Source: Sporomusa termitida
Lineage (GTDB): Bacteria > Bacillota > Negativicutes > Sporomusales > Sporomusaceae
Direction of reading: 5' to 3'
Assembly: GCF_007641255.1 (NCBI RefSeq)
Contig: NZ_CP036259.1
Span: forward strand, 310,001 to 374,000
DNA length: 64,000 bases
How positions within the stretch are numbered: the first letter of the stretch is position 1; the number at the start of each line of letters is the position of its first letter. Shown piece by piece: positions 40,060 to 60,175 of this stretch. The notes under the pieces were generated by a model. It saw only the letters and a program-made list of their open reading frames with translations, was not told the DNA's origin and did no database searches. Both the position numbers and the translations under genes were made by a program.

Positions 40060-40917
40060 TTATTCCAGTACTGTGGTCTTGCGGTCAGCCCGCCACCACA
40101 GCACGCCGATAGTCGAGTTAATCAGTTCGGTGCAGTAATCTTCCACTGACCGGTTAGCCAGGAATTCAGTAATTTTAGCTGACGTCTCCGGGCTGTCCAG
40201 ACCAAACAGCTTGAAATAACTGGTGTAATATTCAATCATAAAAGCCAGTGTCTCCCGGTAGCGCTGGCGGTAGCTGTAAAATTTAATATTAGGCAGATAC
40301 CGGTCCTGATACAGGATATTAAACGGGTATTGGATATCAAACGCCGTTTGCTCAGGCGGTGTGCCGATCAGGTGCTCCCATAACAGTGTCCGCACTTTGA
40401 TGTGATAGGTGCCGGCAAAGCCGATCAGGCAGCAGGTACCGCGGGACAGTTCATTCATTTTCATTAAGCTGTCATAATCGTTAATAGCGGTAGTGTTGGC
40501 GGCAAACACCACATCATAAGCAGGTTCGGCCGGCAGGTCCAGCCAGTCGGCCTGGAGGGCCGTAATCCGGTCGGAAATCCTGTCGTGAGCGGCCTCGGAC
40601 TGCAGGACAGACAGCATTTGTGCAGCTGTATCCAACCCTGTTGCCTGTTTGGCCCTGGCGGCCAGCGGCAAGGTAAAGGTACCGGCTCCGCAGCCTATGT
40701 CCAGTACTGTGCTGGCCGGGGTTATTACACCGTCGGCAACTAAGCCGTCAATAATTGCATTATATATCGGCCGGCTTTGGCGGTTGCGCAGGGCGTACTG
40801 CTCGGCAAAATCATTCCAAAACTGCTGCCAGCCTTGTTTGTTGCCATAACTTGGGGCCTGATGGGAACTCTCACGCGCTTCCTGCCAGGCCTCAGTCCAA
40901 AACTTGGTATTGCACAT
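40060..40917 (-). CDS. class I SAM-dependent methyltransferase, paralogue B
   Basis: 285 aa. Motif I VLDIGCGAGTFTLPLAA, post-I TGLDTAAQML, and the same C-terminal blocks as the protein at 37590-38453 (TTAINDYDSLMKMNEL, CCLIGFAGTYHIK, LLWEHLIG, YPFNILYQDRYLPN, and a terminal STIGVLWWRADRK). On the plus strand the next signal upstream is a B12 riboswitch facing away. Duplication within 3 kb plus an FmdE partner on one copy suggests specialised variants. Substrate unknown. Confidence 0.85.
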   Translation of the reverse strand: MCNTKFWTEAWQEARESSHQAPSYGNKQGWQQFWNDFAEQYALRNRQSRPIYNAIIDGLVADGVITPASTVLDIGCGAGTFTLPLAARAKQATGLDTAAQMLSVLQSEAAHDRISDRITALQADWLDLPAEPAYDVVFAANTTAINDYDSLMKMNELSRGTCCLIGFAGTYHIKVRTLLWEHLIGTPPEQTAFDIQYPFNILYQDRYLPNIKFYSYRQRYRETLAFMIEYYTSYFKLFGLDSPETSAKITEFLANRSVEDYCTELINSTIGVLWWRADRKTTVLE

Positions 40918-41215
40918 GGCTTGTCATCCTTCCTGCTATGTAAATTAATAAAGTCCTTTAGGCGCCGGCAGAAGCCTTAGGCTCTGAATATTATCAGACA
41001 GGGGATAAACTTTCTGATAATGTAAAAAAAGCATGAAGTCCAAGGAATTATCCCTTAGGTTTCATACCGGAGTGTTTGAATCTTCATGATTCAAGCTACT
41101 AGTTTAAATATAAATTGTTTTGCAGTAATTGTCAATTAGCAATAGCATTGCTTGTATGCTGAAAACAATAAAATAAAACAGTAAATTACCAGCAATTACG
41201 CAATAGGCTAAGTTG

Positions 41216-41244
41216 TTGACACTATTTACAATAAAGCTTATACT
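41216..41244 (+). promoter_or_regulatory. promoter of riboswitch 1 transcript
   Basis: TTGACA (41216-41221), 17-nt spacer, TATACT (41239-41244), placed about 30 nt before the cobalamin riboswitch. The preceding 40918-41215 stretch is the divergent A/T-rich region shared with the minus-strand methyltransferase gene. Confidence 0.85.
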
Positions 41245-41274
41245 AAAATTGTCATCAACTTAATTACATACGGC

Positions 41275-41485
41275 GAGTTGGGTGCCCTGCGGGGCTTAAT
41301 AGGGAAGTCCGGTTAGAAACCGGCGCGGTCCCGCCACTGTAACGGGGAGCAAGCTTAAGATATACCACTGGGATAATTGGTCTTGGGAAGGTTTAAGCAA
41401 GCTATGATCCGGAGCCAGGAGAACTGCCTAGCTGACAATCACCGTTTTTACCCACGAGGTATGGGGAGGGGATTACAGTAGGCGC
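41275..41485 (+). promoter_or_regulatory. cobalamin riboswitch 1
   Basis: It contains the conserved core in order: GGTGCC with its hairpin, TTAATAGGGAAGTCCGG, GGCGCGGTCCCGCCACTGTAA, the CCACTG/GGGAAGG segment, and the B12 box AGCCAGGAGAACTGCC. The structure ends with ATGGGGAGGGGATTACAG. The architecture equals the AdoCbl-I class. It precedes a cyclic-di-GMP-type signalling gene rather than a B12 synthesis or transport gene. Confidence 0.95.
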
Positions 41486-41517
41486 TTGGTTACAGACTCA
41501 TTGCGTCGCTTGAATTC

Positions 41518-41605
41518 ACTCCTGGTATAATGAGGTACCAGGAGTTTTGTTTTGGCAAACTGTTATTACTATTCCCGGCTTAAGCAGCGGGAGTTTTTTG
41601 TTTGG
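41518..41605 (+). terminator. tandem terminators of riboswitch 1
   Basis: ACTCCTGGTA/TACCAGGAGT (41518-41545) followed by TTTGTTTT is the expression platform. A second, weaker hairpin (TCCCG/CGGGA, about 41573-41592) followed by TTTTTTGTTT comes right after. Riboswitch 2 has the same double arrangement. Confidence 0.8.
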
Positions 41606-41728
41606 GAAAATACAAGCTGCCAGCTTGATTCATCAGTTGTGCTGCCTGTTTATCAATGTACCGAAGCGGGAAAAACATCCGGTATGCTTTGTAAATACAG
41701 CTAACATAATAAGGCGGTGTGTGCGAAG

Positions 41729-43720
41729 ATGAGTTTTACCACACAGGACAACGGACTATTAAAGTGCGTTTATCAAGAGTGGGGACAACGGGAAGATTTT
41801 AATTTCTATCTGTCCATCTTATCCCATCAGTTTAATTTTGTATTTAACCACTCGCAAAGGGTGGCATATTATGCGGTTAGGCTGGCCCAAGCGACCGGCT
41901 GCCGTGATACTGAGATTGTGAATATTGGTGCAATGGCGTTGCTGCATGATATTGGTAAAATAAATGTACCGATCAAGGTTTTATATAAACAGGGTACTTA
42001 TGATCCGTATGACCGGAATGAAATGGAGCGCCATCCGGTCTATGGCAGCCAGATGCTGCTGCGATCCAAAGAGCTGCGGGAGCTTATTGCCGGGGTACTG
42101 CACCATCACGAGCGTTATGATGGCAATGGCTACCCCAATAAACTCAAAGCCTTGGAAATCCCCTTGCCAGCCAGGATCATTCATATTGCCGAAGCCGTTG
42201 ATGTTATGACGACAATCCAGAATTATCAGCAGGTAAGAAGCTGGCATGAAGCTATGGGTGAGCTGGAACGGGCGGCTGACAGTCAGTTCGACCGGGCTCT
42301 GGTAAAAGCCTTTTTGGCATTAGAACCGGCTATGTTTGCTGCCGGCAGGATGGGCGCCGGCCAGGCAGCGAGACAGGAAAAGCAGCAGCTGGTTTTATCT
42401 GCCGGCAGTGTTGGGCATTACCTGGAGAATATAGCAAATTTAGGGGTCATTTGTTTGGATAAAAACAATACAGTTGTATTTTGTAATGCCTGTGCAGAGC
42501 AGATACGGCAATTGCCTGAAGGTACTTTATTAGGTAAAAACTTTTTAGACAGTTATCCCCAGCACCGGCGAAAAATTCTCGAGGACAAGCTGGGGCAGCT
42601 GCGGGCTGGTAAAAAAAAGGCATGGTATCGCCTAATGGGCCGTAATGGGCGGTTTATTGAGAACCGGTATTCACGGGTAACGGATGCCAGTGGTAAGTTT
42701 ATCGGCACTGTTTTGGTCACAATTGATGTGACCGAGCGGGAGAAAGTGGCCCGCAGTCTGAATGCCGCCCTGGAAAGGCAGGCCGCCTTGTATCAGGCAG
42801 CCCAGATCATCACCTCCTCGTTAAGTATTGCCGAGATCATTGACGGCATCCTGAGGATTATAAGAAAGACGATGGTGGTTAACAAGGCCGAAATTTATTT
42901 ATCAAGTGAAACCAACGACGGTATCCCGGCTATGCATACGCATGAGTACAGCCGCAGTGAGCCGATTGAAGGCCAGGAGGGTTACCGTGAGGCGGCAAAC
43001 CAGGTTTACAGTACTTTGCGGACAGTCATGGCTGCTGATGAACAGGGCAAGCTGGCAAAATATTATGTCCCGCTTATCTACCGGCGTGATTTACTGGGGA
43101 TATTATATATTGAAAGAACCAGTCCGGGTGAGGAGTCGCAGGAACGGCTGGAGCTTCTGGAAGCACTGGCCAGCCAGACTGCGATTGCGATTAGGAATGC
43201 CCGCCTGCACGAGGAAGTCCAGTACCTGGCCGAGTATGATAAATTGACAGGCTTACTGAACCGCCATTCCTTTGACCGGTTTTTTGCAGAGCAGTGCCGG
43301 CAGGCCGCAGAGCAGCCGGCGCCGGTTACACTGCTGATGATTGACATTAATGGCCTAAAGCTTGTCAATGACCAATATGGGCATGTGGCCGGTGATATGT
43401 TAATTAAGGCTGCTGCTCAGGTTGTGAAAAATAGTATCAGCAGTGACGACCGCGCTTTTCGCTATGGTGGTGATGAGATTGTTGTGCTGCTGCCGGGGGT
43501 TTCTCTCCCGGAAGCACAGATTATTATTAAGCGGATACAACGCAATAGCAAATGGTGGCAACCGGGCATTGTTGCTAATGTGTATGCTGATTTGACTCTC
43601 AGTGTCAGCATTGGCGCCGCCGCGAGCAGCGAAGTCAGTCTGGAATGCCTGATTCAGGAGGCTGATAAACGCATGTATGAAAGTAAGCGTCTTTATTATA
43701 AGTCGCTGGATGTAAAATGA
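41729..43720 (+). CDS. HD-GYP / PAS / GAF / GGDEF cyclic-dinucleotide signalling protein
   Basis: 663 aa from ATG 41729, with AAGGCGG upstream; GTG 41717 is an alternative. Residues about 20-200 are an HD-GYP domain (LLHDIGKINVP, then HHHERYDGNGYPNKLKALEIPLPARIIHIAEAVDVMTT); 225-340 a PAS domain (GVICLDKNNTVVFCNACAEQI); 355-495 a GAF domain; and 500-655 a GGDEF domain with YDKLTGLLNRHSFDRF and active loop YGGDEI. The Asp/Glu pair is intact, but no RxxD inhibitory site precedes it. No membrane helix, so probably cytoplasmic. It may both make and break cyclic-di-GMP. The only upstream control is cobalamin riboswitch 1, so the gene should be off when B12 is plentiful; that link is inferred from position. 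Confidence 0.9.
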   Translation: MSFTTQDNGLLKCVYQEWGQREDFNFYLSILSHQFNFVFNHSQRVAYYAVRLAQATGCRDTEIVNIGAMALLHDIGKINVPIKVLYKQGTYDPYDRNEMERHPVYGSQMLLRSKELRELIAGVLHHHERYDGNGYPNKLKALEIPLPARIIHIAEAVDVMTTIQNYQQVRSWHEAMGELERAADSQFDRALVKAFLALEPAMFAAGRMGAGQAARQEKQQLVLSAGSVGHYLENIANLGVICLDKNNTVVFCNACAEQIRQLPEGTLLGKNFLDSYPQHRRKILEDKLGQLRAGKKKAWYRLMGRNGRFIENRYSRVTDASGKFIGTVLVTIDVTEREKVARSLNAALERQAALYQAAQIITSSLSIAEIIDGILRIIRKTMVVNKAEIYLSSETNDGIPAMHTHEYSRSEPIEGQEGYREAANQVYSTLRTVMAADEQGKLAKYYVPLIYRRDLLGILYIERTSPGEESQERLELLEALASQTAIAIRNARLHEEVQYLAEYDKLTGLLNRHSFDRFFAEQCRQAAEQPAPVTLLMIDINGLKLVNDQYGHVAGDMLIKAAAQVVKNSISSDDRAFRYGGDEIVVLLPGVSLPEAQIIIKRIQRNSKWWQPGIVANVYADLTLSVSIGAAASSEVSLECLIQEADKRMYESKRLYYKSLDVK

Positions 43721-43815: not shown

Positions 43816-43844
43816 TTGACAATCATTTCTTGAGGTGTTATGCT
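43816..43844 (+). promoter_or_regulatory. promoter of riboswitch 2 transcript
   Basis: TTGACA (43816-43821), 17-nt spacer, TATGCT (43839-43844), about 35 nt before the second cobalamin riboswitch. Confidence 0.8.
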
Positions 43845-43877
43845 AATTTCACAGAGGACAACTTAATATGTTTGAAA

Positions 43878-44085
43878 TAGGTGCCTAAAGGCTTAATAGG
43901 GAAGTCCGGTTTAATGCCGGCGCGGTCCCGCCACTGTAACGGGGAGCTAGCTTAAGATATACCACTGAGCATTTGTCTTGGGAAGGTTTAAGTGAGCCAT
44001 GAGCCGGAGTCAGGAGAACTGCCTATTTGACAATCGCCGTTTATTACCCACGAGGCATGGGGAGGGGATTACAGTAGACGCTGGC
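43878..44085 (+). promoter_or_regulatory. cobalamin riboswitch 2
   Basis: Same ordered core as riboswitch 1: GGTGCC, TTAATAGGGAAGTCCGG, GGCGCGGTCCCGCCACTGTAA, B12 box AGTCAGGAGAACTGCC and the closing GGGGAGGGGATTACAG. It controls the CbiK gene 300 nt downstream. Confidence 0.95.
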
Positions 44086-44111: not shown

Positions 44112-44140
44112 ACTCCTGGTTAACAGCCAGGAGTTTTTTT
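44112..44140 (+). terminator. riboswitch 2 terminator, first of two
   Basis: ACTCCTGG/CCAGGAGT stem followed by seven Ts; expression platform of riboswitch 2. Confidence 0.85.
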
Positions 44141-44158
44141 ATAAGACTACTGTTTATT

Positions 44159-44191
44159 ACTCCCAACTTTAACGGTTGGGAGTTTTAATTT
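44159..44191 (+). terminator. riboswitch 2 terminator, second of two
   Basis: ACTCCCAAC/GTTGGGAGT stem followed by TTTTAATTT, only 19 nt after the first terminator. A third possible hairpin (GGTCT/AGACC then TTTCTTTTT, 44237-44260) lies further on. No gene is present in 44192-44389. Confidence 0.75.
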
Positions 44192-44389
44192 AATGACATT
44201 CTTCTCAACGCTCCTTTTGAATTGCGCATTGGCGCGGGTCTCTAGCAGACCTTTCTTTTTACAGTTTTACTATCATATAAATATTTTATTGCAGTGAGGA
44301 GGCTGCCTATGAGGTAATCAGCAGGTGAAGAATTGCGGGGATTTTCTCCAGGCATTCGTTATGTAAAATTTAAAGGAGTTGTTTTATTT

Positions 44390-45322
44390 ATGAAAAAAAT
44401 TTTTTCCTTACTTACCACGATCTGTATGCTGGCCGTATTTGGTTGCGTCAGCCTGATCCCGTCGCTGGCTGCGGCTGCACCGGCTGCGGCTGGTAAAAAG
44501 GCTATTTTGGTTGTGAGTTTTGGTACAACCTACCACGACACACTGAAAGCAACTATTGAAGCAGTTGAAAATAAAATACAGGCTGAATTCCCTGATTATG
44601 AAGTGCGCCGGGCATTTAGCTCCCGGATTATCATTAAAAGATTAGCCGAACGTGACGGTATCAAGATTGATACTGAGAAACAAGCGCTTGACCGCCTCAA
44701 AGCCGAAGGCTTTACTGAAGTTATTGTACAACCTATGCAAATTACCGCCGGTGAAGAATATGAGCTGATTAAAAGTGCGGTGGCCCATGCGCAAGCGGCT
44801 AAAACCTTTGAAAAGCTTACAATTGGCAGACCCCTGCTTTACTATATGGGCCAGGAAGACACCACCGATGATTATCAGGCAGTAGTCGAAGCATTAGCAA
44901 CCCAATACCCGAAACTTAAGAAGAATGAAGCTGTCCTGCTGCTGGGCCACGGCGGGCTCCACCCTGCCACTGCTACCTATCCTGCCCTGCAGGAAAAACT
45001 ACAGGATGCAGGCTATAAAAATGTATATGTTTATACTGTAGAAGGCTATCCTACCCTGGAAGGTACGATTGACAAGCTGAAAGCCAATAAAGTCAAAAAA
45101 GTAACCCTGATGCCGTTAATGCTGGTAGCCGGCGATCATGCCGTCAATGATATGGCCGGTGACGAAAGTGATTCCCACAAAACTCAGCTTATTGCCGCCG
45201 GTATTAAAGTTGACACCTATATCCATGGCTTAGGCGAAAATGAAAAAATCCAGGATATCTATGTTCAACATATAAAAGATGCGATTGATGAACTTAATAA
45301 TCCTGAAGCTAAAAACCATTAA
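44390..45322 (+). CDS. cbiK: exported sirohydrochlorin cobaltochelatase
   Basis: 310 aa from ATG 44390, with AAAGGAGTT upstream. Residues 1-33 form a signal peptide ending in an Ala-rich region (SLIPSLAAAAPAAAG), so the enzyme should be exported. The CbiK domain follows: ILVVSFGTTYHDT, VRRAFSSRIIIKRLAER, the metal-site histidine in LLLGHGGLHPAT, and the second in VAGDHAVNDMAGDESDS. CbiK inserts Co(II) into sirohydrochlorin in the anaerobic B12 pathway, normally in the cytoplasm; exported versions are known from Desulfovibrio, where the role is debated. Cobalamin riboswitch 2 directly upstream supports a cobalt or B12 function. Confidence 0.92.
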   Translation: MKKIFSLLTTICMLAVFGCVSLIPSLAAAAPAAAGKKAILVVSFGTTYHDTLKATIEAVENKIQAEFPDYEVRRAFSSRIIIKRLAERDGIKIDTEKQALDRLKAEGFTEVIVQPMQITAGEEYELIKSAVAHAQAAKTFEKLTIGRPLLYYMGQEDTTDDYQAVVEALATQYPKLKKNEAVLLLGHGGLHPATATYPALQEKLQDAGYKNVYVYTVEGYPTLEGTIDKLKANKVKKVTLMPLMLVAGDHAVNDMAGDESDSHKTQLIAAGIKVDTYIHGLGENEKIQDIYVQHIKDAIDELNNPEAKNH

Positions 45323-45529: not shown

Positions 45530-45562
45530 AAAATCGAACCTGTTTTGTAATTTAATACTGTT

Positions 45563-45775
45563 GAGTTGGGTGCCCAATGGGCTTAATAGGGAAGACCGGT
45601 GAGAAACCGGCGCGGTCCCGCCACTGTAACGGGGAGCAAGCTTAAGATATGCCACTGGGGATAAGATTCCCGGGAAGGTTTAAGCAAGCGATGAGCCGGA
45701 GCCAGGAGAACTGCCTAGCTGACAATCGCCGTTAGAGACCCACGAGGTATGGGGAGGGGATTACAGTTAAGCGCG
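45563..45775 (+). promoter_or_regulatory. cobalamin riboswitch 3
   Basis: GGTGCCC, TTAATAGGGAAGACCGG, GGCGCGGTCCCGCCACTGTAA, AAGCTTAAGATATGCCACTGG, B12 box AGCCAGGAGAACTGCC and GGGGAGGGGATTACAG appear in order. It is nearly identical to riboswitch 1 in the AAGCTTAAGATA region, suggesting duplication. It heads the long operon containing CobN, CbiZ and TonB. Confidence 0.95.
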
Positions 45776-46167: not shown

Positions 46168-46194
46168 AGATGCCAACCTTTCGCAGGCGGCATC
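46168..46194 (+). terminator. weak hairpin between small ORF and TIM-barrel gene
   Basis: AGATGCC/GGCATCT stem with a 13-nt loop followed by TTCTTCTTCC. It may attenuate transcription into the following gene. Confidence 0.45.
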
Positions 46195-46226
46195 TTTCTT
46201 CTTCCGGCACAGTAAAGGATGTACAT

Positions 46227-47201
46227 ATGCTACAGCTTGTAAATTTGTCAAACTATACGACTGATAATGATCTCATCAACAATAATGGGGAATGTCTGCA
46301 GAGATTTTTGCATTGTCACCATTTAGACGGCATTGAGATGATGTTTTGCGGGCCGTTGGATGAAACTCTCCATAAAAAAGAATGGATCCATGGCGTTCAT
46401 CTCCGCTTCTGGCCCTGGTGGCTCGATTTTTGGCGTGGCGATCAGTGTGCATTATTAAAGCAGTTTGGCAATGAGGCTGCTATCAGGGACTGTTATGGCG
46501 GTATAACCAGGGAAGAGTGGCTTACTGTTTACCGGGAGAACATTATGGCCGCCAAGCAGGCGGGAGCTAAGTATGTTGTGTTCCATGTCAGTCATGCCCG
46601 CATCTCCGAATTGTTTACCTGGAAATTTCATGCCTCCGACCGGGAGGTAATTGAAGCAACGGTAGAGGTTATTAACGCACTCCACAGCTCGATACCTGCA
46701 GATATGACCCTGTTGTTTGAAAATCTGTGGTGGCCGGGGCTAACCTTGCAGAGCAAGGAACTGACAGCGTATCTGCTGGAGGGCGTAGCTCACCGGAATG
46801 TTGGCATTATGCTGGATACGGGGCACCTGATGAATACCAATCCGGCCTTACGAACCCAGGCCGAGGGCATTGACTACATTCTTAGAACAATATCCCGGCT
46901 CGGCAGCTACAGCCAGTATATTAAGGGGATTCATCTGCATCACTCCTTGTCGGGCGAATATATCAGGGAAAGTCAAAACAGGCGGCAGCACCAGGAGCAA
47001 TATTCAATGACTGAACTTATGCATCATGTACTTAAGATTGATGAGCATCTACCGTTTAGTGTGCCCGAAGCAGGGCGCATTGTGGATTATATACAGCCTG
47101 ACTACCTGGTACATGAGTTTATGAAAAATACAATGAGTGAATGGATTGAGAAAATTAACTGCCAGCAACAGGCATTAAGCAGGGTGAGGTCAGATATATG
47201 A
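46227..47201 (+). CDS. TIM-barrel (xylose isomerase-like) protein of B12 operon
   Basis: 324 aa from ATG 46227, with TAAAGGATG upstream. Residues show the AP-endonuclease-2-like barrel metal sites: YVVFHVSHARI, LLFENLWWPG (Glu), GIMLDTGHLMNTNP (Asp/His) and KGIHLHHSLSG (His). The stop overlaps the ATG of the BtuF-like gene. Similar barrels are sugar or cofactor isomerases or hydrolases. Position between a cobalamin riboswitch and corrinoid genes points to a corrinoid or nucleotide-loop related job, but no activity is established. Confidence 0.75.
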   Translation: MLQLVNLSNYTTDNDLINNNGECLQRFLHCHHLDGIEMMFCGPLDETLHKKEWIHGVHLRFWPWWLDFWRGDQCALLKQFGNEAAIRDCYGGITREEWLTVYRENIMAAKQAGAKYVVFHVSHARISELFTWKFHASDREVIEATVEVINALHSSIPADMTLLFENLWWPGLTLQSKELTAYLLEGVAHRNVGIMLDTGHLMNTNPALRTQAEGIDYILRTISRLGSYSQYIKGIHLHHSLSGEYIRESQNRRQHQEQYSMTELMHHVLKIDEHLPFSVPEAGRIVDYIQPDYLVHEFMKNTMSEWIEKINCQQQALSRVRSDI

Positions 47202-48163
47202 GATATTTTCAGATAATCAAACCGATCGTATTTTTACTCTGCCTATTGCTTTTGTGCGCAGGCTGTGCTAATCAGCAGAGACCCCAGGCCGAGCCGTCGG
47301 CGGCCGGCTATGAGGTAAGAGACGGCCAGGGAAATGTACTGAAATTGCGGGGGAAACCCCAGCGGATTATATCTTTGTCGGTCAGTACCGATGAAATTCT
47401 GCTGGGCCTGGTACCGTCAGGGCGGATTGCCGCCCTGACTTATCTGGCAGATGACGGCGGCCTGTCCAATATTACCGAACAGGCTAAGGCCGTACCGGCG
47501 AGAATACGGGCTAACCCGGAAGTTGTCATTGCCCTGCAGCCTGATCTCGTGATTGTGCCGGACTGGCAGCCGCTAGAGTTTGTGCAGACAGTCCGGGATG
47601 CAGGTTTTCCCGTCTATATTTATCAATGGCCTAATTCCATTGAAGAAATCAAAAACGTAATTTTGGAGATTGCCCGGGCGGTCGGCGAACCGGAGGCGGG
47701 AGCGAAGCTGGTTGCCGATATGGACAATACGCTGGCCGAGGTTGTTGACAGGGTCAGGCCGATACCTGACAGCCAAAGGCCGGTGGTGGTCCGTTTTTCC
47801 CTGATGGGTGGCAGTGACGGTAAAGGCACGACTTTTGACGATATCTGCCAGTATGCCGGCGTGAAAAACGGGGCCGCCCTTGCCGGGCTGGGGATGAATG
47901 ATATATTGTCCAAGGAACAGCTGGTCAAGGTGAATCCTGACATACTGTTAATGCCAACCTGGGATTACACCGGCAAAACCGATATGGCGCAATTTGCCGC
48001 CGATATCCAGAATGATCCGGCCCTGCAGTCGGTTAAGGCCATTCGCCGGCAGCAGCTTGTCTCAATACCTGAACGGTATTTGGTTTGTACATCGCAGTAC
48101 ATAGTTTGGGGTGTAAAAAACCTGGCCAGCTATGCCTATCCTCAATATTTCCCTGAGAAGTAA
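47198..48163 (+). CDS. btuF: BtuF-like corrinoid-binding lipoprotein 1
   Basis: 321 aa. Residues 1-24 are a lipoprotein signal (FLLCLLLLCAGC) with the lipobox Cys at about 24. The remainder is a type III periplasmic binding fold (Peripla_BP_2): KPQRIISLSVSTDEILLGL, ANPEVVIALQPDLVIVPDW and the long alpha backbone around residue 150-185. It would capture B12 or another corrinoid (or heme/siderophore) for an ABC importer. Its position in a riboswitch-controlled operon favours a corrinoid. No permease gene sits in this operon; the BtuC-type permease is 13 kb downstream after riboswitch 4. Confidence 0.85.
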   Translation: MRYFQIIKPIVFLLCLLLLCAGCANQQRPQAEPSAAGYEVRDGQGNVLKLRGKPQRIISLSVSTDEILLGLVPSGRIAALTYLADDGGLSNITEQAKAVPARIRANPEVVIALQPDLVIVPDWQPLEFVQTVRDAGFPVYIYQWPNSIEEIKNVILEIARAVGEPEAGAKLVADMDNTLAEVVDRVRPIPDSQRPVVVRFSLMGGSDGKGTTFDDICQYAGVKNGAALAGLGMNDILSKEQLVKVNPDILLMPTWDYTGKTDMAQFAADIQNDPALQSVKAIRRQQLVSIPERYLVCTSQYIVWGVKNLASYAYPQYFPEK

Positions 48164-48169
48164 CGTAGT

Positions 48170-48324
48170 GGTCCGCCTACATTGAAAGCGTAAAATAATT
48201 CACGGGAATTTTTTCGCAAGACGAGGCGGAGGAGGCGCACATATCGGACATATGTAAGCCGACGACAACGAAGTATGGCGGAAAAAGGCCCATGAAGTAA
48301 TTATGATTTCAGTGTAGGCGGACC
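48170..48324. repeat. long imperfect palindrome containing repeat copy B
   Basis: GGTCCGCCTACATTGAAA (48170-48187) and TTTCAGTGTAGGCGGACC (48307-48324) are inverted repeats matching at 17 of 18 bases. The interior element (48209-48286) runs from TTTTTTCGC to GGCGGAAAAA and contains GACGACAACGAAG, shared in reverse orientation with 3012-3024. The inner part folds further (ACATAT/ATATGT). No coding gene or transposase. It is a mobile-looking dispersed element located inside an operon, between btuF and cobN. Confidence 0.7.
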
Positions 48325-48371
48325 AGTAGTGCCGACAAGGGAAAATGCAAGCAGCAGTGGGGGAAAACCAT

Positions 48372-51300
48372 ATGGGAAACATAATATTTTTAACGAATAT
48401 TGACCGCCAACACAGCATGCTGGTAAAGGCAAGCCGCCGGCTGCAAGAAGCAGGCCGGCTAGCCAGCAACATCGACATTGTTTTTCTTAACGACAGTATG
48501 GTATGGGGACCGGAATGGCAGCAGCGCTTCCGTGTCTGTGACGTCGTGCTGTTTTCCTGGATGGGGATGGGGCGGGATACGCACTTTTTGCAAAAGGCCG
48601 GCGATTTCCTGCGGCAAAAAGGGATAACCCATACTATGCTGGCAACTGAACCTCAGCCCGAAGACACTCTTTACGGCGTAACAGCGGCGGAACGGGAACA
48701 GCTGCGCCGGTATTTAGTCTATAGCGGCCTCGATAATTATTGTAATTTCTGTTTGTACCTGAGCAGCCGCTATGGCCGGGATACCTGCGAATTCCAACAG
48801 CCGCAGCCACTGGTATGGAACGGTATTTTTCATCCCCGGGCCGCCGGCATATATACGGATGTTGCCGAATACCGGCAGCACCATTGCCAGGCAGGCCGCC
48901 CGACGATAGGCCTGTTGTTTCCGCGGGATGAATGGATATGGGCCGATCTGGCGTACCCAACAGCGCTTATTGATGAGATTGAGGCCCGGGGCATGAATGT
49001 AATCGCCGCGTTCAGCCACTGGGCGCGCAGTGCTGAGTTTGGCGCTCAGGGGATCGATGACGCTTTCAAAAGCTATTTTTATGATGATGGGTTGCCCGGC
49101 ATTGATGTGCTGATTAATACATTTAAGTTTTCCTTGACGGTCGGCCGGCCGGTGGAGCCGGATTTTTTACAACAGCTGGGAGTGCCGGTTTTGCAGGCCT
49201 ATGCCCTATTGCGCTCCCCGGCAGAGTGGGACCGGAGTAGTGAGGGTCTGACCCCCATGGAGATATCCTGCAGTATTGCCTTGCCGGAATTCGACGGGGT
49301 TATTCACTCTCTGCCTGTGGCCGGTAAAACACAGGCAGCCGATGGAATGACCAGCTACGAAACTATGCCTGAACGCATCAGTCAGGTTGTGCGTAAAGCC
49401 GGCAAGTGGGCTAACCTGCGCCGCAAGCCCAATCGGGAGAAAAAAATTGCCGTTATTTTTCATAATTACCCGGCTACTAATGCCAATATCGGCAGTGCGC
49501 AAGGCCTGGACTCACCTGCCAGTATCCGGCTGCTGCTGGAACGGATGGCCCAGCAGGGATACAAGGTGGATCATATTCCCGACGACAGCAGGGCGCTTAT
49601 GGAGGAATTGCTGGCGGTGGCCACCAATGACCGGCGCTTTCTGACGGATAGCCGGATTGCCCGGGCGGCGGGCAAGGTAACCACCGGGCAATACCGGGAA
49701 TGGTTTCAGGGCTTGGAGCCTGGGACCCGGACGCAGCTAACCGAAGACTGGGGCCAGGCTCCGGGCGATGTTTTCCATTATGAAGGCCAGCTGCTTGTTC
49801 CGGGCCTGCTTAACGGCAATATTTTTATTACCGTACAGCCGCCGCGCGGCTTCAGTGAGGACCCGGGCAAGCTGTATCATTCGCCGGACTGTGCGCCCAC
49901 CCATCACTATTTGGCGTATTATTACTGGCTGCGGGATATCTGGCAGGCCGACGCGGTTGTCCATGTCGGCACCCATGGCACCCTCGAGTGGCTGCCCGGC
50001 AAAGCGGCCGGGCTTGCGCGGACCTGTTACCCGGATCTGGCTATCGGCGATTTACCGAATATTTATCCTTTCCTCATTACTATCGTCGGTGAAGGTATCC
50101 AGGCTAAACGGCGCGGCGCCGCCTGCCTGATTGGTCACCTGACGCCGCCGGTGAGTCAGGCCGGCACTTATGATGAACTGGCTGAGCTGGAGAAGCTGCT
50201 TGATGAATATTGCCACTTTCAGCAGAACCAGCCGGCCAATGCGGAAGTGGTTGCCGGCCAGATCAGGGAGCAGGTTATTGCCGCCAATCTGGCAGCAGAT
50301 GTCAGTCAACAGCCGGATGAGGCTTTCGGCAAATACAGCCAGCGTCTGCATGTCTATCTCACCGACCTCAAAAATATGCAGATCAGGGTAGGCTTGCATG
50401 TTCTGGGCTGTCCGCCCCAGTCGGATTCACTGCCGGAATACCTGCTGGCTCTTACCCGGCTGGCCAACGGGACCGTACCATCCCTAACGGAAACCGTGGC
50501 GGCGATTCACGGCTATGACTATTACGAGCTGCTTGCGCATAGCGGCAAACTGGTGTCTGACGGCAGCAAAACCTATGGCGCGCTGGCCGCTGAGATTTGG
50601 CAGCAGTGCCGCGAGGCTGTCGGCCGGCTGGAGGAGCATGATTTTGAACCCGCTGCGGCCGAGGCGGTAGTAAACCTTGCCTGGGCTGCCGGGGCCGGAC
50701 CAGAGGCTAAAGACCGGCTGCGGCAGATAGCCCGGTATATCTGCACGGTATTAATACCAAACCTCTATAAGACAGAACAGGAGCTTACTAACCTGCTGGC
50801 GGCGCTGGGGGATCGTTTCGTCGAGCCGGGGCCGGCCGGGGCGCCCACAAGCGGAATGGCCGATATTTTGCCGACTGGGCGCAATTTCTTCGGGGTCGAC
50901 CCGCGAACCCTGCCCACGGCGGCAGCCTGGGAACTGGGAAAAATGCTGGGAGACAGTGTTATTGAGCGGTTTATTGCCGAGGAAGGCCGTTATCCGGAGA
51001 ATATTGGCATGGTCTTTTGGAGTGGGGCCAATATGCGCAGCCATGGCCAGTGTATTGCCGAATTCCTGTATTTGCTGGGGGTGCGGCCGGTATGGCAGCG
51101 AGGCAGCCGGCGGGTTGCCGGGCTGGAAGCCATCCCCCTGGACGAGCTAAAGCGGCCGCGGCTTGACGTTACGGCCCGGATCGGCGGTTTATTCCGCGAT
51201 TCCATGCCGATGGCGGTTAAATGGATGGATAAGGCGGTTAGTCTGGTCGCCGGCCTGGAAGAAAGCAGCGAACTGAATTTTGTCCGTAAGCATGTATTGG

Positions 51301-52088
51301 CCGATGCCCGGCTGATCAGTGAACAGGGTCTTGACAGCCAGACGGCCTGGGAACAGGCCTGTTACCGGCTGTTTGGCTGTCCGCCGGGCAGTTATGGCGC
51401 CGGTGTCAGTCATTTGTTAGAGGAAAAGAACTGGGAAACTGTCGATGACCTGGCAAGGGTGTATGTACGCTGGGGCGCGCATGCTTACGGTGCCAAAGCC
51501 GGCGGCGTTTTCGTGCCTGAACTTTTCAGCCGGCGGCTGGGCTCACTTGATGTTACGGTCAAAAATGAAGATAACCGGGAAGTCCATATGCTTAATTCCG
51601 ATGATTTTAATTCCTATCATGGCGGCATGATTGCGGCTGTCCGCAGCCTGAAAGGGAAGGCTCCCCGCTCGTACTGCGGCGACAGTTCCAACCGGCAGCA
51701 GGTGATGCTGCGGAGCCTTGATGAGGAATTCAAGCGTCTGTTTCGCGGCGAGGTTATGAATCCCAAATATATTGAAGGTATGAAACAGCACGGCTATAAA
51801 GGGGCTGCCGATCTGGCCGGGGTTGTGGCCCATTGCTATGAATGGGATGCTACCAGTGGGGTTATGGCCGACTGGATGTACCAGGGACTGGCGCAAAAAT
51901 ATGCGCTTGACGCACCGATGCGCGCGTGGATGCGCTCTGTCAATCCCTGGGCTTTGCAGCGGATTGCGGAAAAATTGCTGGAAGCGGCGCAGCGTGGTTT
52001 GTGGCAGGCTGACGAACAGACAAAACGTCAGCTGCAGCAAATTTATCTGGAGATTGACGGTGAACTGGAAGAACGGGGTGACAACTAG
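48372..52088 (+). CDS. cobN: CobN-like cobaltochelatase large subunit 1
   Basis: 1238 aa, the size range of CobN (1100-1300). ATG 48372 has GTGGGGGA upstream. CobN/Mg-chelatase H motifs are visible throughout: NYPATNANIGSAQGLDSPASIRLLLERM, ADAVVHVGTHGTLEWLPGKAAGL, IGDLPNIYPFLITIVGEGIQAKRRGAACLIGHL, FGVDPRTLPTAAAWELGK and WGAHAYGAKAGG. In aerobic B12 synthesis CobN with CobS and CobT puts Co(II) into hydrogenobyrinate diamide. Here the partner ATPase genes are ChlI/ChlD-like and lie in the same operon. The organism also has CbiK, so this complex may act on salvaged or damaged corrinoids, on another tetrapyrrole, or in transport; this is inference. Confidence 0.9.
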   Translation: MGNIIFLTNIDRQHSMLVKASRRLQEAGRLASNIDIVFLNDSMVWGPEWQQRFRVCDVVLFSWMGMGRDTHFLQKAGDFLRQKGITHTMLATEPQPEDTLYGVTAAEREQLRRYLVYSGLDNYCNFCLYLSSRYGRDTCEFQQPQPLVWNGIFHPRAAGIYTDVAEYRQHHCQAGRPTIGLLFPRDEWIWADLAYPTALIDEIEARGMNVIAAFSHWARSAEFGAQGIDDAFKSYFYDDGLPGIDVLINTFKFSLTVGRPVEPDFLQQLGVPVLQAYALLRSPAEWDRSSEGLTPMEISCSIALPEFDGVIHSLPVAGKTQAADGMTSYETMPERISQVVRKAGKWANLRRKPNREKKIAVIFHNYPATNANIGSAQGLDSPASIRLLLERMAQQGYKVDHIPDDSRALMEELLAVATNDRRFLTDSRIARAAGKVTTGQYREWFQGLEPGTRTQLTEDWGQAPGDVFHYEGQLLVPGLLNGNIFITVQPPRGFSEDPGKLYHSPDCAPTHHYLAYYYWLRDIWQADAVVHVGTHGTLEWLPGKAAGLARTCYPDLAIGDLPNIYPFLITIVGEGIQAKRRGAACLIGHLTPPVSQAGTYDELAELEKLLDEYCHFQQNQPANAEVVAGQIREQVIAANLAADVSQQPDEAFGKYSQRLHVYLTDLKNMQIRVGLHVLGCPPQSDSLPEYLLALTRLANGTVPSLTETVAAIHGYDYYELLAHSGKLVSDGSKTYGALAAEIWQQCREAVGRLEEHDFEPAAAEAVVNLAWAAGAGPEAKDRLRQIARYICTVLIPNLYKTEQELTNLLAALGDRFVEPGPAGAPTSGMADILPTGRNFFGVDPRTLPTAAAWELGKMLGDSVIERFIAEEGRYPENIGMVFWSGANMRSHGQCIAEFLYLLGVRPVWQRGSRRVAGLEAIPLDELKRPRLDVTARIGGLFRDSMPMAVKWMDKAVSLVAGLEESSELNFVRKHVLADARLISEQGLDSQTAWEQACYRLFGCPPGSYGAGVSHLLEEKNWETVDDLARVYVRWGAHAYGAKAGGVFVPELFSRRLGSLDVTVKNEDNREVHMLNSDDFNSYHGGMIAAVRSLKGKAPRSYCGDSSNRQQVMLRSLDEEFKRLFRGEVMNPKYIEGMKQHGYKGAADLAGVVAHCYEWDATSGVMADWMYQGLAQKYALDAPMRAWMRSVNPWALQRIAEKLLEAAQRGLWQADEQTKRQLQQIYLEIDGELEERGDN

Positions 52089-52094
52089 ACAGCT

Positions 52095-53174
52095 ATGGTA
52101 AAAATGCTGATATTAGGTTTGACCGGACAATGTAATTTTGCCTGTACATATTGTTATGCCCATGAACATCCGGCCGAAACCATGACTGCCGGTACGGGCA
52201 TTGCGGCTGCCGAACTGGCGGCAGCCGGCGGACAGCCCTTTGTCCTGCAGTTCAGCGGCGGTGAACCGCTGCTGAACTTTCCGGCCATGCAGGCGATTAT
52301 CCGGCATGTACGGGAGCAGGGGCTGCCGGCCGTCATGCAGGTTCAGACCAATGCCTCTCTTATGACACGGGAAAAAGCGGCTGTCCTTAAAGCCGGGCAG
52401 GTAGGCATTGGTATCAGCCTGGATGGGCGGCCGGACATGAACGACAGGCAGCGCTGCCTGTCTGACGGCCGGGGCACCTGCCGGCAAATAGTGAAAGGCG
52501 CTGCTGAGCTGGCGGCAGTGGGGGTTGAGACCGGGATTACCTGTGTCGTAACCAATGAAAATGTCAGCAGTCTGGCCGGGATTGTGGAAATGGCCTATTA
52601 TCTGGGCAATGTGCGGCGGATTGGTTTTGACCTGCTCCGTACCCAGGGGCGGGGCGGCGAGGTTGCCCCGCCCCAGCCTGAGGCGGTGTGGCAGGGGGTG
52701 AAGGAAGCCTTCCAGCTGGCCCGGCGCTTAGGCCGGGAGACCGGCAACACCATATTGTTTTCTCAGCTTGAGCGGGTCGCTTTTCTGACCAGGGGGCAGA
52801 TGCCGGGGTTTGCCCACTGTCATGCCATGAAGGGGGAGGCTGCTTTTGTGGATGCCAGGGGCCAGCTGTATGCCTGCGCGTCCCTGGCTGGCAACCCTGA
52901 TTTTTATCTCGGCCATGTTACTACCGGGATTGAAGAAAGCCGGCGGCAACGAGTTGCCGCTTTGATTCAGGCCAGCATGGCCTTTTGCCTCAGATGTCCC
53001 TCCTTTGCCTTATGCGGCGGTGCTTGCTTTGCCCGGTGGTATGGAGCCGACTGCGGCGACCGGGGATATGACGCCGAGTGTGCGTTAAAACAGGTATCGA
53101 TAGAATGGTATCAGGAACTTCAGGGACAGGAGAGGAAAGAAAATGAGAGTTGCATTACTGCATGTAGATGTTAG
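52095..53174 (+). CDS. radical SAM protein with SPASM-like C-terminus
   Basis: 359 aa starting 6 nt after cobN. The radical SAM cluster motif is C13-NFA-C17-TY-C20 (CNFACTYC), followed by the GGE motif FSGGEPLLN and the TNASLMT strand. The C-terminus (about 300-335) has SPASM-like cysteines (FCLRCPSFALCGGACFARWY), typical of sulfatase-maturase and peptide-modifying enzymes that carry extra [4Fe-4S] clusters. The ATG of the nitrilase gene overlaps the 3' end. Its substrate is unknown; a small protein at 45919 in the same operon, or a corrinoid precursor, are possible targets. Confidence 0.85.
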   Translation: MVKMLILGLTGQCNFACTYCYAHEHPAETMTAGTGIAAAELAAAGGQPFVLQFSGGEPLLNFPAMQAIIRHVREQGLPAVMQVQTNASLMTREKAAVLKAGQVGIGISLDGRPDMNDRQRCLSDGRGTCRQIVKGAAELAAVGVETGITCVVTNENVSSLAGIVEMAYYLGNVRRIGFDLLRTQGRGGEVAPPQPEAVWQGVKEAFQLARRLGRETGNTILFSQLERVAFLTRGQMPGFAHCHAMKGEAAFVDARGQLYACASLAGNPDFYLGHVTTGIEESRRQRVAALIQASMAFCLRCPSFALCGGACFARWYGADCGDRGYDAECALKQVSIEWYQELQGQERKENESCITACRC

Positions 53175-53919
53175 CGGTGGTCCGGAAAGCCGTAATCTTG
53201 AAATTCTGACGCAAGCGGTACGGCTGGCGGCTGAACAGGGGGCCCAGTGGATTATTACTCCTGAGACCGCCGTACAGGGATATTTCTTTGCCTGCGAGCG
53301 GGAGCTAAAACCGGTGGTGATTCCGGTGCAGCCGGCGCCGGCGATTCAGCCGATCAGGCAGCTGGCGGCGGCGTATGCGGTTACGGTGTTTTTAGGCTGC
53401 GCCGAACAGGATGAGTATAATGGGCATTGTTACAACAGCTGTCTGGTGATTGGCCCTGATGGCAATATTATCGGCCGTCACCGGAAAAAACACGCCCATA
53501 GCGGCGTATCCGAGGGCTGGGCGAACCGGGGTGAGCAGCTGGAACCGGTCGTTTGCGGCGATATCCCGGCCGGTATTCTGATTTGTTCTGATACCTGGTA
53601 TGAGGAAAATGCTGTAACTATGGCCGATAAAGGGGCTCAGGTCATTATCGTGCCGGCTGCCTGGCCGCCGGGCGGCTGCGGCGGTCCGCCGGAAAATGCC
53701 TGGAAAAAAGCATCAGCGGTCAGCGGCTGTTCCCTCTGGGTTTGCAACCAGACCGGCAAACAGGAGCGGCTGGATTTTACCCAGGCCCAAAGTACGGTAA
53801 TTGCCAGGGGGGAGATGCAGTTGGCCTACAGCGGTCCCGAACCGGCGGCGCTGTTATTCGACTGGGATTTTAAACAACAGTGTGCCCTGACCGGTGAATT
53901 TACCGTGCTGCCGTTATAA
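53143..53919 (+). CDS. nitrilase/carbon-nitrogen hydrolase family protein
   Basis: 258 aa. The catalytic triad is visible as Glu in ITPETAVQG (about 43), Lys in GRHRKKHAHSG (about 113) and Cys in ILICSDTWYEEN (about 149). This superfamily hydrolyses or condenses amides and nitriles. It starts inside the radical SAM gene, 32 nt before that gene's stop, so the two are translationally coupled. Among corrinoid genes an amide-side-chain hydrolase or amidase acting on cobinamide or cobyric acid derivatives is plausible, but that is inference. Confidence 0.85.
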   Translation: MRVALLHVDVSGGPESRNLEILTQAVRLAAEQGAQWIITPETAVQGYFFACERELKPVVIPVQPAPAIQPIRQLAAAYAVTVFLGCAEQDEYNGHCYNSCLVIGPDGNIIGRHRKKHAHSGVSEGWANRGEQLEPVVCGDIPAGILICSDTWYEENAVTMADKGAQVIIVPAAWPPGGCGGPPENAWKKASAVSGCSLWVCNQTGKQERLDFTQAQSTVIARGEMQLAYSGPEPAALLFDWDFKQQCALTGEFTVLPL

Positions 53920-53995
53920 GCGCAAAGGCTGAGGTCAGGAGATAGTGAAACAGAAGCCAGAAATGAGCTTTAGGATAAAGGGGAGGGACCAGGCT

Positions 53996-55105
53996 GTGAA
54001 ACTTTGTACCCTGTCTACCGGCGATCATGTATACCGGTATTATAAAAGCATTGTCATACCTTTCGAACAGCCCCGGAAAGTGGCGAGTACCGCGATTGTC
54101 AACGGTGGCTACCGCGAGGACCTGACGGCAGTATTCAACAATGACTGTAACCCGGGAGCAGGGATGTCCAGCATTATGCGCGGGCCAACCTACCAGGAAC
54201 ACATGCGGATTATTACTGAGGAAATCGGGCTTGACCCCGCGACAACCGCCGGCATGGGAACAGCCGCTTCGATGCAGAATGTGGCAATTCATAGCCTGGC
54301 CTATGAAACGCTGACGGTAACCGCGATTGTAACCGGCGGGGTCGAGGTTAACGGCGGCCGGGTTGGTGATCCGGCCGACTATTTCCAGCCGCTTGATAAA
54401 AATACCCGGGAAAAACCGGGAACCATTAATATCATTCTGGTTATTGATGCTGATTTACCGCCAGGGATGCTGAACCGGGCCATGGTAACCTGTACCGAAG
54501 CCAAGACCGCAGCCCTGCAGGAGCTGATGGCCGGCAGCAACTACTCCAACGGGCTAGCGACCGGTTCCGGCACAGACCAGACGATTGTTGTGGCCAATCC
54601 GGCCTCGCCACTATATCTGGAAAGCGCCGGCAAACACTCGAAGCTCGGTGAATTGATTGGCCGCACCGTGCTGCCGGCTGTCAAGGAAGCGTTACTTAAA
54701 CAGACCGGTCTTTCGCCCCGGCACCAGCATAGCCTGCTGCGGCGGCTCAAACGGTTTGGCATTACAGAAGAATCGATATGGCAGGTTTACATCACGGGGG
54801 GCGAGCAGGTAATAAAGCTGAAGTTTCTGAGTCAGTTGTATCAGCTCGACAGTGACAGCCACCTGGTAACCTATACCACGTTATACATCCACCTTTTGGA
54901 TCAGCTCCAATGGGAACTGTTATCCGGGGATGAGGTGCGCGAGGCCGGCAATGAACTGCTTGCCGCCGCCGCCGCCAGGTTTGGCGTGGCCGCGCCGGCA
55001 ATAACAACCATTGGCCTGGACTCTTGCCTGCAAGCCTGGCAGACCCTGGTACTGGCTATTGTCAGAACTAACCTACAGACTACCTGTACTGATGACAGCA
55101 ATTGA
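53996..55105 (+). CDS. cbiZ: adenosylcobinamide amidohydrolase
   Basis: 369 aa from GTG 53996, placed by GGGGAGGG at about 53979-53987; an earlier GTG at 53945 has poorer spacing. The CbiZ domain (about 15-225) is clear: ASTAIVNGGYREDLTAVFNNDC, YETLTVTAIVTGGVEVNGGRVGDPADYF, GTINIILVIDADLPPGMLNRAMVTCTEAKTAALQELMAGS and GLATGSGTDQTIVVAN. A C-terminal extension of about 140 residues has no recognised fold. CbiZ cleaves the aminopropanol side chain of cobinamide or pseudo-B12 so that foreign corrinoids can be rebuilt. Riboswitch control and neighbouring BtuF fit corrinoid salvage. Confidence 0.9.
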   Translation: MKLCTLSTGDHVYRYYKSIVIPFEQPRKVASTAIVNGGYREDLTAVFNNDCNPGAGMSSIMRGPTYQEHMRIITEEIGLDPATTAGMGTAASMQNVAIHSLAYETLTVTAIVTGGVEVNGGRVGDPADYFQPLDKNTREKPGTINIILVIDADLPPGMLNRAMVTCTEAKTAALQELMAGSNYSNGLATGSGTDQTIVVANPASPLYLESAGKHSKLGELIGRTVLPAVKEALLKQTGLSPRHQHSLLRRLKRFGITEESIWQVYITGGEQVIKLKFLSQLYQLDSDSHLVTYTTLYIHLLDQLQWELLSGDEVREAGNELLAAAAARFGVAAPAITTIGLDSCLQAWQTLVLAIVRTNLQTTCTDDSN

Positions 55106-55121
55106 TAATCAATAATAGGAG

Positions 55122-56162
55122 ATGAACAGACATTTGAAGCATACTGCCGTATATCCATTTACAGCGATTGTCGGTCAGGACGATATGAAACTGGCGCTTG
55201 TCCTGAATGTAATTAATCCGCTGTTGGGCGGGGTACTGATCAAAGGGGAAAAAGGCACCGCCAAATCAACAGCAGTCCGCGCCATAGCCGATTTACTGCC
55301 GGCGATGGAGGCCATTACAAACTGTCCTTTCCACTGTGACCCGGGTGATGAAAACCGGTTATGCGATGATTGCCGGGAAAAAACCGGGGCCGATAAAGCC
55401 CTGCCGGTCCATTCAATTAAGATGCGGGTCGTTGAACTACCGGTCAGTGCCACCGAGGACCGGGTTGTCGGGACGCTGGACATTGAGCATGCCATTAAGC
55501 ATGGCGAGAAAAAATTTGACCCCGGTATTTTGGCCCAGGCCAACCGTAATATCCTGTATGTGGATGAAATTAACCTGTTGGATGATCATGTGGTTGATGT
55601 ACTGCTGGATGCAGCCGCTATGGGGGTAAATACAGTTGAGCGGGAGGGCGTTTCTTACTCTCACCCGGCCCGGTTTGTCCTGGTCGGTACGATGAATCCG
55701 GAAGAAGGGGATATCCGGCCTCAACTGCTGGACCGTTTTGGTTTATCGATCGAAGTGGTAGGTGAGAATCAGCCGGAACGGCGGGTGGAAGTGATCAAAC
55801 GCCGCTTAGCTTATGAGCAGGATACCGGCGAATTTGCCCAAATATTTCAGGAAGAACAGGGAAAACTGGCGGCAAGCATTTTGCAGGCCAGGCGTTTGCT
55901 GCCGGAGGCAGTTATTGACGACAGGCTGCTGTTATTAGTGGCGAATGTGGCTATTGCCCTGGATGTGGACGGTCACCGGGCCGATATTACCGTGATTAAG
56001 GCAGCCATGACCTTAGCGGCTTTTGCAGGGCGTGCTAACGTTGAACCCGATGATGTCCGGCGGGCGGCCAAGCTGGTTCTGCCGCACAGGATGCGGCGGC
56101 GGCCCTTTGAGGACGGGACACTGGACTGGGACAAAGTCGAGGCATTGTTTGCCGGGCTGTAA
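55122..56162 (+). CDS. ChlI/BchI-like AAA+ chelatase subunit
   Basis: 346 aa. Walker [10 protein letters not shown] (43-51), Walker [14 protein letters not shown] (about 146-158), sensor [21 protein letters not shown] and the MgChlI insert. A Cys cluster ([18 protein letters not shown], about 68-85) is inserted between Walker A and B, as in many Firmicute ChlI-like proteins. ATG 55122 is close to AGGAG; TTG 55134 is an alternative start. With the ChlD-like protein next door it would form the ATPase motor for CobN, in place of CobS/CobT. Confidence 0.9.
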
Positions 56163-56181
56163 GCGGCAGGAGGGAAGGAAG

Positions 56182-59847: not shown

Positions 59848-59973
59848 TAAACAATAGGTATCGCTATGGCAGGCCTACTGCTGCCGACCAGCTGTTTTCT
59901 TATGGGAATATCGGCTGTAACAGCGGTATAGTGAATAACGGCGGAGTTGTCAGCTAATTAAATATTATGGAGA

Positions 59974-60175
59974 CAGGTGCCCTTCGGGGCTTAATAGGGA
60001 AGTCCGGTGCAAAGCCGGCGCGGTCCCGCCACTGTAATGGCGAGCGAAACCAGGATATACCACTGAAACGGGGCGTTTTGGGAAGGTCTGGGGGAGTGAT
60101 GAGCCAAAGCCAGAAGCACTGCCTGTCTGACGGTCACCGGTTTACTCACGCGCGATGAGGAGGGGATTAGAAAGC
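59974..60175 (+). promoter_or_regulatory. cobalamin riboswitch 4
   Basis: GGTGCCC, TTAATAGGGAAGTCCGG, GGCGCGGTCCCGCCACTGTAA and GCCAGAAGCACTGCC appear in order, but the B12 box and central stems differ more from copies 1-3 (ATGGCGAGC, AAGCCAGAAGCACTGCC). It is therefore an older or independently acquired copy. It heads the second btuF-btuC-cobN unit. No clear -35/-10 pair could be placed before it, so it may also be read through from tonB. Confidence 0.93.

Follow-up and report, generated by a model that had tools for sequence, protein, structure and literature searches.

Few RNA regulators have been surveyed as well as cobalamin riboswitches. Their described targets comprise the synthesis and transport of B12, the transport of cobalt, and isozymes, as collected in a comparative survey of RNA-motif regulons (PMC3766115). 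A locus of Sporomusa termitida raises the question of whether such a riboswitch can also govern an enzyme of second-messenger turnover. The gene found behind it encodes a protein with HD-GYP, PAS, GAF and GGDEF domains and falls into none of the surveyed classes. The locus lies in a window of 64,000 nt, which is the whole stretch of DNA analysed (G000:C1:310001-374000, where G000 denotes the two-contig, 5.3 Mb genome of S. termitida), and bare coordinates below are positions of this window. An earlier note had described a promoter, a cobalamin riboswitch, terminators and the signalling gene following one another on the plus strand with no other gene between them. This arrangement was confirmed, with the following elements.

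41216-41244, plus strand: sigma-70-type promoter TTGACA-17-TATACT, scoring 11/12, 18 nt 5' of the aptamer
41263-41445, plus strand: cobalamin riboswitch aptamer, RF00174 (covariance model, 107.3 bits, E 6.8e-26)
41412-41428, plus strand: B12 box GAGCCAGGAGAACTGCC, placed by sequence and by alignment to the Rfam consensus
41450-41466, plus strand: P13-like hairpin ACCCA-CGAGGTA-TGGGG, then AGGGG, read from the sequence
41518-41545, plus strand: terminator T1, ACTCCTGGTATA-ATGA-GGTACCAGGAGT, then TTTTGTTTT
41571-41594, plus strand: terminator T2, ATTCCCGG-loop-GCGGGAGT, then TTTTTTG
41711-41719, plus strand: probable ribosome binding site AAGGCGGTG, read from the sequence
41729-43720, plus strand: HD-GYP/PAS/GAF/GGDEF gene, 663 aa

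The aptamer is full length, covering positions 1-189 of 189 of the model, and its score compares with a gathering score of 31.5. The promoter is a member of a recurrent class in this genome: promoters scoring at least 10/12 occur within 65 nt 5' of the aptamer at 10 of 30 S. termitida riboswitches, against 2% of control segments. The hairpin at 41450-41466 presumably represents P13, and a similar motif is located 3' of the other three riboswitches in the window and of riboswitches in two further genomes of the genus, G004 and G005. Translation likely begins at ATG 41729, which lies 3' of AAGGCGGTG, rather than at the alternative GTG 41717. Terminator-like sites in the region are not enriched over shuffles (8 found, 5.7 expected). 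Hairpins with the 5' arm CTCCTGG and differing loops are present at similar places 3' of 7 of the 30 S. termitida riboswitches inspected, and tandem terminators behind single riboswitches also occur at 43862 in the window, and at C1:394776 and C1:396343. The RF00174 aptamer is followed in cis by an expression platform, T1 and T2, which recurs in its paralogues. In the tandem pairs (41518-41594 and 44112-44183 of the window, L006 and L018) the first arm is CTCCTGG and the second CTCCC or similar, the latter perhaps able to pair with GGGAGGGG, which follows the P13-like hairpin.

Corrinoid would have little effect on the gene if its main promoter were situated 3' of the terminators, used another sigma factor and were invisible to a consensus scan. 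Approximately 130 nt separate T2 from the start codon, which offers room for such a promoter, and the scan covered sigma-70 patterns only. However, no sigma-70-like promoter was found from T1 to the start codon, where the best site scores 7/12, equal to the control level. Furthermore, the corresponding leader of G005 extends only ca. 100 nt beyond T1 and contains no promoter. A main promoter at this position is considered very improbable, and transcription from the promoter at 41216-41244, through the riboswitch, is the reading pursued here.

Three more cobalamin riboswitches, which the earlier note does not mention, are present in the window at 43862, 45551 and 59958. The surroundings of the HD-GYP gene are as follows.

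40060-40917, minus strand: methyltransferase gene, reading away from the riboswitch
43816-43844, plus strand: promoter of the next riboswitch unit, TTGACA-17-TATGCT
43862-44040, plus strand: second cobalamin riboswitch, with T1 at 44112-44134 and T2 at 44159-44183
44333-45322, plus strand: CbiK-type cobalt chelatase (PF06180, 1.7e-100; likely start ATG 44390)
45551-45732, plus strand: third cobalamin riboswitch (RF00174)
46170-58050, plus strand: corrinoid cluster of TIM-barrel protein, periplasmic binding protein, CobN, radical SAM, CN-hydrolase, CbiZ and chelatase ATPases
59958-60140, plus strand: fourth cobalamin riboswitch, ahead of BtuF/BtuC-like genes (named from sequence)

Within the CobN/chelatase-ATPase cluster, the CN-hydrolase and CbiZ-type amidohydrolase at 53143-55105 form a pair that likely serves corrinoid salvage. 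On the minus strand, the methyltransferase gene has a leader of nearly 200 nt (40918-41107) behind a TTGACA-17-TATATT promoter, and no Rfam family fits this leader.

The direction in which corrinoid acts on the HD-GYP gene can be approached through the expression platform. A repressing corrinoid riboswitch in which terminator and P13 coexist has been described alongside an activating one in which they share bases, and the platforms of S. ovata use more than one mechanism (PMC10653944). In addition, B. subtilis reporter assays have shown repression by 12 corrinoid riboswitches, taken from S. ovata and V. parvula (PMC9600662). In the present leader T1 is placed ca. 50 nt past the P13-like hairpin, with no bases in common, and the CbiK switch located 2.6 kb further downstream has the same platform. 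From this separation, from the CbiK-like platform and from the repression exerted by the S. ovata and V. parvula elements, we infer an off-switch. The opposite sign, with corrinoid turning the HD-GYP gene on, has one known corrinoid-responsive precedent, the cobT riboswitch of A. halodurans (PMC10653944), but the P13 and terminator of that element overlap whereas those here do not, and a platform identical to that of the CbiK switch likewise argues against activation, which we regard as extremely improbable.

Under the off-switch, a plentiful corrinoid cofactor would hold the aptamer folded, T1 would form with T2 as a backup, and transcription would end. When corrinoid is scarce, the 5' arm of T1 (CUCCUGG) would pair with a freed upstream strand, the candidates being CCAGGAG in the B12 box and a strand GGGGAG located in the aptamer or the P13 region. 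The B12 box segment CCAGGAG (41415-41421) is complementary to this arm, 7 Watson-Crick pairs and one G-U being possible between box and arm. Ligand-free energy folding of three paralogues paired the arm with different upstream strands and gave no single consistent antiterminator. With the terminators failing in shortage, the HD-GYP gene would be transcribed alongside the CbiK, CobN/CbiZ and uptake units, which carry cobalamin riboswitches of their own.

What such a switch would produce depends on the 663-aa protein, whose domains are arranged as follows.

41816-42301, plus strand: HD-GYP domain (HD_5, 1.9e-29), with the HDIGK, H102, HHERYDGNGYP and D158 motifs intact
42443-42742, plus strand: PAS domain (PAS_4, 4.2e-12)
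42824-43198, plus strand: GAF domain (GAF_3, 6.9e-11)
43229-43690, plus strand: GGDEF domain, with GGDEI (GGDEF, 3.6e-36)

The HDxGK and HHExxDGxGYP signatures are present as LLHDIGK and HHHERYDGNGYP, and together with the downstream D motifs they align with those of the solved HD-GYP phosphodiesterases PmGH (4mcw), V-cGAP3 (5z7c) and 4r8z. The motifs are also kept in the G005 and G003 proteins. Four positions ahead of its first His, the window protein lacks the Glu that serves as a metal ligand in PmGH, and for this reason its site is probably a two-metal one. In the GGDEF domain the GG(D/E)E active site, with its D, ND and GD residues, is found as LLMIDINGLKLVNDQYGHVAGD and YGGDEI, with N in place of the second D in the usual DxD. 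The RxxD inhibitory site, which is missing from many active cyclases, is absent here, SSDD having S in place of R, while G002 contains RTAD.

The frequency with which riboswitches lead HD-GYP genes was considered across the genome. RF00174 has 37 matches above the cut-off and one below it in S. termitida, several of them in runs of two or three, and the number per genome in the genus ranges from 6 to 38 (31-33 in two other members, 6-7 in some others). The first genes behind them, their families profile-scanned for some and named from sequence for others, are mostly B12/corrinoid synthesis and uptake genes and those of outer-membrane proteins. Two riboswitch units lead HD-GYP genes, which belong to different subfamilies. 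The second, behind the riboswitch at C1:416305, encodes an HD-GYP-only protein of 191 aa (C1:416883-417437), and the gene after it is that of a CobA/CobO-type adenosyltransferase. Given 23 HD-family matches genome-wide, and with gene and unit numbers assumed, the chance of at least two HD-GYP first genes among 22-30 units is p about 0.004-0.01. A further HD gene, at C1:4571013, was rejected as a riboswitch target, as it is located upstream of the riboswitch and not behind it.

In G004, the gene of a small HD-GYP protein that shares 58% identity with the one at C1:416883 stands behind tandem riboswitches (C1:696009/696493) and ahead of a riboswitch and CbiK. The G004 protein contains HDIGR and HHERYDGTGYP, whereas the S. 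termitida protein (L072:2883-3458) has the degenerate motif HRDRYDGCGSP and may be a form that has no catalytic activity or acts as a receptor. A 232-aa protein without a match in Pfam or NCBIfam (L063:9560-10258) is encoded in G004 between the HD-GYP gene led by riboswitches and the riboswitch of CbiK. Near distant small HD-GYP homologues, no riboswitches were found at 20 loci across the class.

The degenerate motif of the small protein, the CobA/CobO-type enzyme after it and the CbiK, CobN and CbiZ neighbours of the window gene would all suit an HD protein that acts in corrinoid metabolism, for example as a nucleotide-loop phosphatase, and not in second-messenger turnover. The window protein, however, joins a full HD-GYP motif to GGDEF, PAS and GAF domains, and its closest HD-domain relatives of known structure carry the names of c-di-GMP or cGAMP phosphodiesterases. 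The need for a missing alpha-ribazole phosphatase was also rejected, given a CobC-type protein present above its cut-off in S. termitida. A corrinoid-processing role is thus held to be improbable, and that of a second-messenger phosphodiesterase is the predicted function retained.

A comparative search for riboswitch/HD-GYP synteny in related Negativicutes, as suggested in the earlier note, was carried out in nine genomes of the genus and 380 genomes of the class (E 1e-60). The arrangement recurs within the genus, but no orthologue of the 663-aa gene was found outside it among the 380 genomes, and several members lack it. Orthologues exist in four of the nine genus genomes, its own included: G000, G005, G002 and G003, of which G002 and G005 are draft assemblies. 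The full order of riboswitch, HD-GYP gene, riboswitch and CbiK is found in G000 and G005, and partly in G002. The G005 orthologue (L040:8632-10176), 64% identical, is accompanied by the promoter, the riboswitch, T1 with a CACTCCTGG arm, a GGAGGAGG ribosome site and the CbiK neighbour, and has lost nearly the whole GGDEF domain in frame, with YLAE joined to CLMQEADKRMY. In G002 the C-terminal part of the gene, with GGDEF, lies at the end of a contig, and two riboswitches and CbiK come after it, while in G003 the HD-GYP part alone stands beside CbiC, with neither riboswitch nor GGDEF domain. The loss in G005 indicates that no strong constraint acts on the architecture. The cyclase half appears to be dispensable, and the conserved output is likelier to be the degrading HD-GYP half, a predicted phosphodiesterase. 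The common denominator is a riboswitch with an HD-GYP gene near corrinoid genes, and this link is genus-restricted, patchy and absent from some members.

Patchy presence, together with the GGDEF deletion in G005, would also be expected of a gene captured between the copies of a CbiK riboswitch that had undergone duplication, its corrinoid response being incidental and of no selected benefit. In G001, G006 and G008 a single riboswitch with CbiK fills the place that riboswitch, HD-GYP gene, riboswitch and CbiK occupy in G000 and G005, and the aptamers of the HD-GYP and CbiK genes share one loose cluster. In a tree of 51 aptamers the copies were too alike to show whether riboswitch and HD-GYP gene had moved together. 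Passive capture nevertheless appears unlikely, as G005 maintains the gene order and the leader at 64% protein identity with the HD-GYP motif intact, and a non-orthologous HD-GYP gene is found behind riboswitches in two genomes. In G001, a 7TMR-DISM GGDEF gene (L065:11655-12767) lies between two CbiK copies, ca. 40 nt ahead of the second, with which it forms a further pair of adjacent c-di-GMP and cobalt chelatase genes and is perhaps cotranscribed; it was rejected as a further case of riboswitch control, a minus-strand gene separating it from the riboswitch.

The reading that we favour, and consider fairly probable, is that a corrinoid-responsive transcriptional off-switch governs an HD-GYP c-di-GMP phosphodiesterase. 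The HD-GYP domain would hydrolyse c-di-GMP once the gene is transcribed, tuned by PAS/GAF input, and the GGDEF domain would be the dispensable half, possibly cyclising or regulatory. The proposal of the earlier note, that B12 shortage raises a c-di-GMP protein, stands as the best-supported reading on the strength of the element order, the lack of a second consensus promoter, the conservation in a second species and the second HD-GYP gene wired likewise, but the bifunctional output that it envisaged needs refining. With GGDEF deleted in G005 and HD-GYP-only proteins behind riboswitches elsewhere, a fall in c-di-GMP when B12 is short is more likely than a bifunctional switch of neutral effect. 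On balance, a lack of corrinoid would likely lower c-di-GMP, which in turn may promote motility or dispersal. Since S. termitida possesses 6 c-di-GMP-I riboswitches (RF01051), the organism probably uses c-di-GMP.

Compared with the known off-switches of S. ovata and V. parvula (PMC9600662, PMC10653944), the element shares the full-length aptamer, B12 box, P13-like hairpin and intrinsic terminator and, probably, the bacterial class of its host, but it differs in having a second-messenger enzyme as its target and two terminators in series. The HD-GYP gene, for its part, differs from those of PmGH, V-cGAP3 and 4r8z in standing behind a cobalamin riboswitch. RNA switching and c-di-GMP signalling are also combined in the RF01051 riboswitches of the same genome, where c-di-GMP is the ligand, whereas here its turnover would be the output. 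A cobalamin riboswitch of Listeria, as cited in PMC11124144, similarly acts on a regulatory and not a metabolic gene, that of PocR, although PocR is a transcription factor and not a dinucleotide enzyme. In the literature searched, which lay outside most subscription journals, we found no earlier description of an HD-GYP or GGDEF gene under the control of a cobalamin riboswitch, and no paper joined the terms cobalamin riboswitch and HD-GYP. Papers that combine a cobalamin riboswitch with GGDEF or diguanylate cyclase, including PMC11124144 and PMC7998248, appear, as far as titles, abstracts and term frequencies show, not to report such control. The absence of precedent is provisional. Neither the RNA nor the protein is unusual within its known family; what is new is the wiring between them.

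Cobalamin riboswitches, in groups of two or three, also precede each gene of three proteins of ca. 1770 aa (L113:4433-9763, on G000:C2; L130:8543-13837; L128:13357-18663). In all three, an autotransporter beta-domain is followed later in the chain by a TonB plug and TonB-receptor barrel, the domain match of the L130 protein having been made through a 1578-aa reading (L078:546-5279). Across the class, many genera also have matches to the fused segment in single open frames of ca. 1400-1850 aa, and two outer-membrane barrels in one polypeptide are worth separate study.

It is conceivable, and put forward tentatively, that corrinoid shortage induces the two HD-GYP phosphodiesterase subfamilies and the riboswitch-led giant outer-membrane proteins as one B12-foraging lifestyle programme in the genus, with corrinoid supply setting c-di-GMP besides B12 metabolism. 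If the wiring described here holds true, control by a metabolite riboswitch can extend to the setting of a second messenger. Such wiring would provide a direct, protein-free link from a vitamin to a c-di-GMP enzyme, connecting nutrition and lifestyle in two steps, and members of the genus may in this manner couple vitamin supply to lifestyle.
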